Assembly (NCBI GenBank): GCA_030039795.1
Contig: JASHUU010000063.1
Coordinates: 1-52,228 of the forward strand
Direction: 5' to 3'
Source of the DNA: Nitrososphaerales archaeon
GTDB taxonomy: Archaea; Thermoproteota; Nitrososphaeria; Nitrososphaerales; Gagatemarchaeaceae
DNA length: 52,228 bases
Shown piece after piece: positions 11,349 to 31,904 of the stretch (positions are counted from its first letter, which is position 1; the number at the start of each line of letters is the position of its first letter). The notes beneath the pieces were generated by a model that did not search any database, was not told where the DNA came from, and saw only the letters and a program-made list of their open reading frames with translations. A program made the position numbers and the translations under genes.

Positions 11349-11418
11349 GGGCGACCTGAGGCGAGTGCCGTAAGGGCCTGGCCCACCTGGTACCTTGAGG
11401 GAGTCGGAGATTTCTGAG

Positions 11419-11510
11419 CGGGCCCGGTGGGATTCGAACCCATGGTTTCTGAGGCGTTTGCACTTCAGCTCCGAAGGCTGACGCCTTAATCCGTGCTAGG
11501 CTACGGGCCC
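11419..11510 (-). tRNA. tRNA-Arg(TCG) with probable 16-nt intron in the variable region
   Basis: A 92-nt cloverleaf on the minus strand. It has acceptor GGGCCCG/CGGGCCC with discriminator G and no encoded CCA, a GCCT/AGGC D stem, and anticodon stem TCAGC/GCTGA with loop CTTCGGA (anticodon TCG at 11472-11474). The T arm is xTGGG-TTCGAAT-CCCAx with one mismatched closing pair. The body closely resembles crenarchaeal tRNA-Arg. The variable region has 21 nt where 5 are expected. Removing 11447-11462 (16 nt) leaves a normal 76-nt tRNA. CTGA (exon) pairs with TCAG (insert), flanked by 3-nt bulges AGT and AAA in the bulge-helix-bulge layout. That predicts an intron at position 45/46. Confidence 0.85.
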
Positions 11511-11530: not shown

Positions 11531-11540
11531 GGTAATTAAG
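11531..11540 (-). promoter_or_regulatory. TATA box of tRNA-Arg, overlapping the mtnA stop codon
   Basis: On the minus strand it reads CTTAATTACC, centred about 26 nt before the tRNA 5' end. The TAA stop of mtnA lies inside it. Confidence 0.6.
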
Positions 11541-12576
11541 CCATAGAGCGGGCGATCGAAGTCTCGAGAGGAGGTTCGATCATGCCTCTGTCTGACACGA
11601 TTGCCGTCACCAGGTCCGGCGGCGTGACGTCGAAGGCAGGGTTCGAGACGGGCACTCCTACCGGGGCCACCCTCCGGCGGCCGACCCGGACTACTTCGTC
11701 CGCGCCCCTCTCTTCGATGGTGACCTGTTCGTGAGTCCGCCTGAGGTCGAACGTCGAAGCAGGCGCCGCGGGGTAGAACGGCACCCGGTGCCTGCTCGCG
11801 AGGACAGCCTCCTGATACGTCCCTATCTTGTTGAAGACGTACCCGTCCTTGGTGACCCTGTCGGCCCCTACCACGACCTTGTCTACAAGTCCGAGGCTCA
11901 TCATGTGGCCCACGGCCGTGTCCGCGATCAGCCTGCAGTCTATCCCGTCTGTGACCAGCTCGAAGGCGGTCAGCCGAGCCCCCTGCAGCGCCGGTCTGGT
12001 CTCGGGGACGAGGACCTTCACCATCTTGCCCTCTTCGACCGCGGCCCTTACGACGCCGAGCGCGGTGCCGTAGCCCACAGTCGCGAGCGACCCTGCGTTG
12101 CACTGCGTGAGCACCGTGTCTCCGTCCTCGATCAGGTGGGCCCCCGCCCTTCCTAGCCTCTTGTTCGCCGCCACGTCCTCCTCTTCCATCGCCTTGGCTT
12201 CGGACGCCGCCCTCTCCTTGGCGTCCCCGACGGACGTCGCCGCGAGCGTGGCACGAAGGACCCTGTCGACTCCCCAGAAAAGGTTGACCGCCGTCGGGCG
12301 CGTCGACTTCAGCAGCGCGGCCTTCGTCTGAAGGCCCTTCGCCAGTTCGGCCATCGTCGTGGCCTTCGAGTTGACCGCTGCGAGCGCCAGCCCCATCCCT
12401 GCGGCGACCCCTATGGCGGGCGCTCCCCTTACCACCATCGTCTTGATCGCAGAGGCCACCTCCTCCGGCGTGGAGAGGGCGACGTAGACGAGCTTAGCCG
12501 GGAGCGCGGTCTGGTCGATCATCCTCACCCTCCTCCCTTCCCATGTGACCGTCCTCGTGGTGAAGAAGTCTGTCAA
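11536..12576 (-). CDS. mtnA: S-methyl-5-thioribose-1-phosphate isomerase
   Basis: 346 residues, the length of the MtnA/eIF2B-like isomerase family. It converts methylthioribose-1-phosphate to the ribulose form in methionine salvage. Seen are the N-terminal VRGAPAIGVAAG motif (about 49-60), the catalytic-Cys segment LTQCNAGSLATVGYGTA (about 156-172) and the catalytic-Asp segment VVVGADRVTKDGYVFNKIGT (about 236-255). These separate it from the regulatory eIF2B subunits. In archaea a close paralogue is ribose-1,5-bisphosphate isomerase of the AMP pathway, but the intact QCNAG motif and length favour MtnA. It starts at ATG 12576 at leaderless distance from a TATA-like box at 12601. tRNA-Arg lies directly downstream. 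Confidence 0.88.
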   Translation of the reverse strand: MTDFFTTRTVTWEGRRVRMIDQTALPAKLVYVALSTPEEVASAIKTMVVRGAPAIGVAAGMGLALAAVNSKATTMAELAKGLQTKAALLKSTRPTAVNLFWGVDRVLRATLAATSVGDAKERAASEAKAMEEEDVAANKRLGRAGAHLIEDGDTVLTQCNAGSLATVGYGTALGVVRAAVEEGKMVKVLVPETRPALQGARLTAFELVTDGIDCRLIADTAVGHMMSLGLVDKVVVGADRVTKDGYVFNKIGTYQEAVLASRHRVPFYPAAPASTFDLRRTHEQVTIEERGADEVVRVGRRRVAPVGVPVSNPAFDVTPPDLVTAIVSDRGMIEPPLETSIARSMA

Positions 12577-12658: not shown

Positions 12659-13213
12659 GTGGGTTTCATGGAGACCACCCCGGACGCGGAGCAGGCCAGG
12701 CCGTTCTCGGCGGTCATCTCCGGGGGCGCGGTGTCCGTCGTAGACCGAGACAGGTTCGGCGAGCTGGAAGGGGCAGGGTATGGGACGAAGGACGAGGACG
12801 GCCTCACGCTGAGAGACTACGAGACGCTCTACCTGCTCTACTCCAAGAAGCTTGAGCTGCGGGACGGGGAAGGCAAGGCGGTCGGGTTCTCGGCTCTCGC
12901 GGAGGCTGCGCAGAAGCGCGCGGGGGACTCCTGGACGAAGTTCGTCATATACCGCGACCTCAGGAGCAGAGGGTACGTGGTGCGTGAGGGGTTCGGCTTC
13001 GGGACCGACCTGAGGGTGTACGAGAGGGGCGACTACCCCAAGAAGGCTGCGAAGTACGTGGTCTTCGCCTTGGACGAAGGGATAGAGAAGAGCGTGGCCG
13101 AGCTCCAAAAGTCAGTCAGGGAGATGGCGAAGATGGGAAAGGAGGCGATCATAGCGGTGATAGAGAGGAGAGGCGAGGTGATCTACTACAAGGTAAGCAG
13201 GGCAAGGTTCTGA
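12659..13213 (+). CDS. tRNA-splicing endonuclease-like subunit lacking the catalytic His
   Basis: 184 residues with the EndA fold: an N-terminal alpha/beta domain, then the nuclease domain with FVIYRDLRSRGYVVREG, FGFGTDLRVYERG and a C-terminal strand pair (EVIYYKVSR). Active EndA uses a Tyr-His-Lys triad. Tyr is present (VYERG) and a Lys is in place (GKEAIIAV), but the residue expected as His, before the KYVV strand, is Ala (PKKAAKYVV). This fits a structural subunit of a heteromeric (alpha-beta)2 enzyme, with the catalytic subunit encoded elsewhere. The enzyme removes introns from BHB motifs; two tRNA genes in this window carry such introns. The GTG at 12659 suits a leaderless start; ATG 12668 is possible. 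Confidence 0.85.
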   Translation: MGFMETTPDAEQARPFSAVISGGAVSVVDRDRFGELEGAGYGTKDEDGLTLRDYETLYLLYSKKLELRDGEGKAVGFSALAEAAQKRAGDSWTKFVIYRDLRSRGYVVREGFGFGTDLRVYERGDYPKKAAKYVVFALDEGIEKSVAELQKSVREMAKMGKEAIIAVIERRGEVIYYKVSRARF

Positions 13214-31814: not shown

Positions 31815-31904
31815 TGCGGCCGCCGGGATTCGGACCCGGGCAAGAGGCGTCCCCGGCGCTGCGCCTTTGGGAAGCCCCTATCCTAACCACTAGATCACGG
31901 CCGC
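31815..31904 (-). tRNA. tRNA-Gly(CCC) with 18-nt anticodon-loop intron
   Basis: 90 nt on the minus strand. Acceptor GCGGCCG/CGGCCGC with discriminator A, a short ATC/GAT D stem, anticodon stem GGGGC/GCCTC, and T arm CCGGG-TCCGAAT-CCCGG. The anticodon loop starts TTCCCAA (anticodon CCC, 31869-31871). An insertion (31849-31866) must be removed to join it to the 3' stem strand. TCCC pairs with GGGG in the insertion, with 3-nt bulges AAA and ACG, a BHB-like site at or next to the canonical 37/38 position. An inner GGC/GCC hairpin caps the intron. The mature tRNA would be 72 nt. No CCA is encoded. Confidence 0.87.

Follow-up and report, generated by a model that had tools for sequence, protein, structure and literature searches.

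Position 45/46 is listed among the non-canonical tRNA intron sites of the Crenarchaeota/Thermoproteales (PMC4090602). A survey with tRNAscan-SE 2.0, which has a dedicated bulge-helix-bulge (BHB) model built from such introns, found 107 non-canonical introns across all thaumarchaeal genomes analysed (PMC8450103). The endonuclease type reported for Thaumarchaeota is alpha2-beta2 (PMC4090602), a type linked to broad specificity and to the acceptance of non-canonical introns (PMC6379350, PMC12397907). At the tRNA-Thr(GGU) locus of Caldiarchaeum subterraneum, intron gain by an integrated element has been proposed (PMC3293823).

The tRNA-Arg(TCG) gene described here resembles the published non-canonical BHB introns (PMC4090602) in intron position, short length, a 4-bp central helix, predicted cuts within the flanking bulges and an alpha2-beta2 endonuclease. 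It differs from them in its host, a Nitrososphaerota genus known from metagenome-assembled genomes (MAGs) of groundwater and similar samples, and in its relaxed motif with almost no outer helix. Since both the 45/46 position and thaumarchaeal introns were already published, the intron belongs to a known sort. It shares its phylum with the thaumarchaeal introns of the earlier survey; in contrast to that survey's 107 introns from all thaumarchaeal genomes, introns interrupt about 70% of the tRNA loci that were found in a complete congener. More notable than the single intron are this proportion in the congener (G005) and a possible element-borne intron gain in one relative (G013).

The tRNA-Arg(TCG) gene and its insert

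The window, that is, the whole stretch of 52,228 nucleotides analysed, comes from a 1.29-Mb MAG of 97 contigs (79% complete), and 30 congeneric genomes were available for comparison. On its minus strand, positions 11510 to 11419 form the complete cloverleaf of a tRNA-Arg with anticodon TCG, 92 nt long. Directly upstream lies an mtnA-like gene of the IF-2B family (11536 to 12576, minus strand; PF01008, 8.6e-88). Rfam model RF00005 matched the same tRNA span with 52.6 bits and placed surplus bases after the anticodon stem, while ARAGORN called a single uninterrupted 93-nt tRNA-Arg(tcg) at 11418 to 11510 on the minus strand without an intron, as might be feared of a simple scanner according to the original prediction. 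The surplus was located to a 16-nt insert, TGCAAACGCCTCAGAA, at minus-strand positions 11462 to 11447, between tRNA positions 45 and 46. The 5' exon (mature positions 1 to 45; 11463 to 11510) was delimited by RF00005 and ARAGORN, and the 3' exon (positions 46 to 73; 11419 to 11446) by RF00005 and comparison with an intron-less orthologue, to which the 5' exon is identical. Removal of the insert leaves 76 nt with a 5-nt variable loop (A44 G45 / A46 C47 C48), and a mismatch, A49-C65, was evident from the Rfam alignment. The mature form scored 61.6 bits against 52.6 for the unspliced form; a higher score for the mature form is the criterion used by tRNAscan-SE 2.0 (PMC8450103), and the gene accordingly falls on the intron side of it.

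Among named genomes scanned with the mtnA-like protein, the best matches, with 66 to 74% identity, were from Thaumarchaeota/Nitrososphaerota MAGs such as NC_groundwater_1049, JOPF036 (Nitrososphaerales) and FK2_bin.173, and the tRNA-Arg(TCG) gene adjoins mtnA both in the window and in the majority of congeners covering the region (L028-L036, L138-L157). In G002 (L138) and in JOPF036 (L035), which has an identical mtnA protein, the tRNA gene occupies the same syntenic site and has no insert. The G002 gene equals the predicted spliced product of the window gene at 76 of 76 bases. At approximately 20 other loci the exons were near-invariant, and an insert of 13 to 18 nt with widely divergent sequence was present at the same point. 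The original prediction had proposed a 16-nt intron at 45/46 whose excision leaves 76 nt and a 5-nt variable loop, had expected relatives to show a gap at 11447 to 11462, and had named as contrary evidence a long variable arm conserved among relatives. Its coordinates were correct, the gap was found in G002 and JOPF036, and no such conserved arm was seen, the relatives' inserts varying in both length and sequence while keeping the splicing core. Because the intron-less gene of a close relative is identical to the predicted product, the insert is almost certainly a BHB-type archaeal tRNA intron at 45/46, predicted to be protein-spliced through a relaxed bulge-helix-bulge.

The same comparison bears on two other readings of the locus. 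The surplus bases could be a true long variable arm, giving a class II-like tRNA-Arg that retains them when mature, and the intron-free ARAGORN call and the short internal hairpins formed by a number of the relatives' introns are consistent with this. Such an arm is difficult to reconcile with an orthologue that has identical exons and no insert, with an insert whose length and sequence are free apart from the splicing core, with the several relatives' introns that have zero or one internal pair, or with the normal 5-nt loops that the genus has in Arg(GCG) and in part of its Arg(CCG) genes. In archaea, tRNA-Arg is not known to belong to class II, and this reading was considered very improbable. 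Still less credence was given to the view that the gene is a decayed pseudogene or an artefact of assembly and that another tRNA-Arg(TCG) does the work. Independent assemblies show identical exons at many loci, with the A49-C65 mismatch preserved, and no second Arg(TCG) gene was seen in the genome itself or in the complete genome G005; these observations outweigh the mismatch as such and the fragmented, incomplete state of the source MAG, which would favour decay or misassembly.

With the insert taken as an intron, its distribution was followed through the genus, where introns at 45/46 are the rule. The statement in the original prediction that the position is known was borne out, and its description as rare outside the Thermoproteales needs softening, because non-canonical introns are documented in Thaumarchaeota (PMC8450103). 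When 300 genomes from the order were searched by exact pattern, an approach limited by exon divergence, tRNA-like matches were confined to this genus; the few pattern matches outside it did not, judging by their letters, look like tRNAs. The converse distribution is seen in Arg(CCG), which carries an intron in most genomes sampled, including G002, and none in G003 or G005. In the mtnA protein tree, the window groups with the intron-less G002 as its sister (support 91/83) in the midst of intron carriers, and the intron-less outgroups (L037, L040) fall outside the carriers. The simplest reading, with moderate support from one gene tree rather than a species tree, is that the 45/46 intron was gained before the genus radiated and was precisely lost in G002.

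Pairing in the splicing core

On the minus strand, exon bases CTGA (11468 to 11465), which also form the anticodon stem's 3' strand (positions 40 to 43), pair with TCAG in the insert (11452 to 11449) to give the central helix H. The helix is flanked by the bulges AGT (11462 to 11464) and AAA (11446 to 11448), exactly as originally proposed. In each bulge, the predicted splice site follows the second base (AG^T and AA^A), the 5' site being set by the exon boundary of the intron-less orthologue and the 3' site by that orthologue together with conservation of the register. The pairing was evaluated in 29 distinct introns at 45/46, comprising 18 from Arg-TCG, 9 from Arg-CCG and 2 from Arg-TCT. All four pairs with exon positions 40 to 43 were present in 27 of them and three pairs in the other two, always at one fixed register in which the pairing intron bases are a block of four separated from the 3' splice site by two bases. 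With shuffled introns, a complete helix was expected in 0.44 of the 29, and the observed pair total was reached in 0 of 20,000 shuffles; neighbouring registers gave means of 1.0 to 1.7 pairs. In the Arg(TCT) paralogue, exon CTGC is found with intron GCAG and exon CTGT with intron GCAG, and the former combination, compared with CTGA/TCAG, represents a compensatory change.

The remaining helices were less regular. The inner, intron-internal helix amounted to 55 bp observed versus 18 expected (0 of 5,000 shuffles), with 2 to 3 bp in many relatives and no pairing or a single pair in several; the window copy has 2 bp only and one unpaired C. The outer helix comprises at most one pair, G39-C47. The strict, canonical hBHBh' form with both outer (h) and inner (h') helices was thus not found in the window intron, and the motif is a relaxed BHB; relaxed motifs fall within the archaeal BHB tRNA intron family (PMC6379350). 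Folding of the precursor with ViennaRNA gave -29.8 kcal/mol for the cloverleaf, -26.2 kcal/mol for the BHB with the central helix only and -37.7 kcal/mol for the unconstrained minimum. The BHB is thus not the fold preferred by energy alone, and its selection would require help from modification, protein binding or folding during transcription.

Splicing enzymes and the proposed route

A gene for a tRNA-splicing endonuclease of the structural beta type lies in the same window, 1.1 kb from the tRNA (12659 to 13213, plus strand; PF01974, 9.5e-24; PF02778, 3.1e-08). Alignment to Methanocaldococcus jannaschii EndA indicated that its catalytic His is not conserved. Most relatives have two PF01974 genes, and the second paralogue (alpha) of the congeners keeps the Tyr/His/Lys catalytic triad. 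Alpha, the catalytic subunit, and beta, the structural one, thus both exist in the genus, and the alpha gene was not found in the 79%-complete assembly that contains the window. A single-subunit alpha4 enzyme, considered for the one PF01974 gene of this genome, was dropped because relatives have two paralogues and the window copy is without the catalytic His. The alpha subunit contains an insertion, YGKPLGIPKPKDFEFDAPL, that is missing from M. jannaschii EndA and from beta; in sequence alignment it matches the extra-loop region of the Aeropyrum pernix enzyme without gaps, which makes it a candidate Crenarchaea-specific loop, and contains lysines, one of which may correspond to the functional, conserved lysine. 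The likeness to the A. pernix (alpha-beta)2 endonuclease (PDB 3p1z/3ajv) extends over the full length of the relatives' alpha (1.2e-44), including the catalytic residues and the Crenarchaea-specific-loop region, and a beta paralogue is present in the genus. Unlike the A. pernix endonuclease, the enzyme of this genus is known from sequence alone, and the window has only beta. The RtcB ligase is also present in the genome. Its match (L249/L250, G000:C96:207-3020) is interrupted by approximately 1.5 kb within a single 1007-aa open frame, which suggests an intein in the tRNA ligase.

In the proposed route, the TCAG close to the intron's 3' end would pair with exon CTGA in the precursor, producing the two 3-nt bulges and a small inner helix. 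The (alpha-beta)2 endonuclease would cut at AG^T and AA^A to release the 16 nt, and RtcB would join the exons to yield a class I tRNA-Arg(UCG) of 76 nt with a normal 5-nt variable loop. The expected junction is GCTGAAG joined to ACCATGGG. CTGA is needed for the splicing helix and equally for the anticodon stem, in which it is the 3' strand. Helix and stem are therefore mutually exclusive, and the anticodon arm should finally close only after the intron has been excised. Cleavage, ligation and refolding of tRNA-Arg(UCG) are what we infer from the sequence, the pairing, its conservation, the intron-less orthologue and the enzyme genes, with alpha present in relatives only.

Intron load and proposed gain and loss in the genus

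The tRNA survey was based on searches and short stretches of sequence. In the complete congener G005, 26 of the 37 tRNA loci found (L140, L167-L203) were interrupted by introns of all positions, or approximately 70%; this is an uncurated count, made by eye from gene spans and sequences, and the search may miss tRNAs that are heavily interrupted. Several of these tRNAs carry at least two introns, located in the D-loop, anticodon, variable region and T-arm. The degree of interruption is comparable with that of the Thermoproteales, which have a mean of 0.84 introns per gene against an archaeal mean of 0.21 (PMC8450103).

In the genome of the window, variable-region inserts were also observed in tRNA-Arg(CCG), Arg(TCT), Ala(CGC) and Lys(TTT), with a second insert in the D-loop of the Arg(TCT) and Lys tRNAs (L004, L022, L006, L024). 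At 31815 to 31904 on the minus strand of the window, ARAGORN called a tRNA-Trp(CCA); the arms fit a tRNA-Gly(CCC) whose 18-nt intron directly follows the anticodon loop, probably at 38/39, with the helix H formed by UCCC/GGGG and bulges AAA and ACG. A similar gene is present in G005 (L182).

A different arrangement was found in G013 (L225, G013:C1:165600-183000). A 23-nt 5' fragment of tRNA-Arg(TCG) at position 275 of L225 is followed by an integrase-like gene (PF00589 at 2.1e-05, slightly below the Pfam cut-off) and, at the opposite end (17173), by a complete tRNA-Arg(TCG) with two introns, the whole putative element measuring approximately 16.9 kb. The complete copy bears an extra D-loop intron, and the 5' fragment is without it. 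The order of 5' tRNA fragment, integrase gene and two-intron tRNA is that of the Caldiarchaeum tRNA-Thr(GGU) locus; the G013 site differs in the size of the element and in its tRNA, Arg(TCG), and the window has no element. By this analogy, element-borne intron gain is possible in G013. The putative element also encodes a TIR-domain protein (PF13676, 2.6e-19) and a DUF5131 protein (L225 10760-11449 and 16210-16983), possibly defence or mobile-element cargo.

The D-loop intron, approximately 50 nt long, was found in near-identical form in both tRNA-Arg(TCG) and tRNA-Arg(GCG) (L227-L231; G013, G045, G046 and G008). It is present in G045 and G046 with no element at the site, and near copies occur in tRNA-Arg(GCG) of G008 and G045, so movement between tRNA genes is likely. 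The similarity of the copies points to transposition or gene conversion between isoacceptors. Neither the D-loop intron nor the 3' part of the window tRNA had a match among viral contigs. In the proposed scheme, the element would target the 5' part of tRNA-Arg(TCG), with the intron inside the attachment site, and integration would replace the host 5' exon and thereby install the D-loop intron, as in G013; elsewhere in the genus, as in G002, introns would be lost precisely. It is only tentatively suggested that tRNA introns in the genus were gained and lost in a burst matching that of the Thermoproteales in strength, borne in part by integrative elements (G013) and accompanied by precise losses elsewhere (G002).

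Taken alone, the window gene adds one well-supported non-canonical intron, and standard scanners miscall many tRNAs in this genus. Together, the loci provide a natural series, in which one orthologous tRNA site, beside a splicing-endonuclease gene, can be followed through approximately 20 related loci where the intron is present, has changed in sequence or is missing. With this series and the high intron load, the ways in which introns are gained and lost, and the proposed part of integrating elements in them, can be put to the test in a group other than the Thermoproteales.
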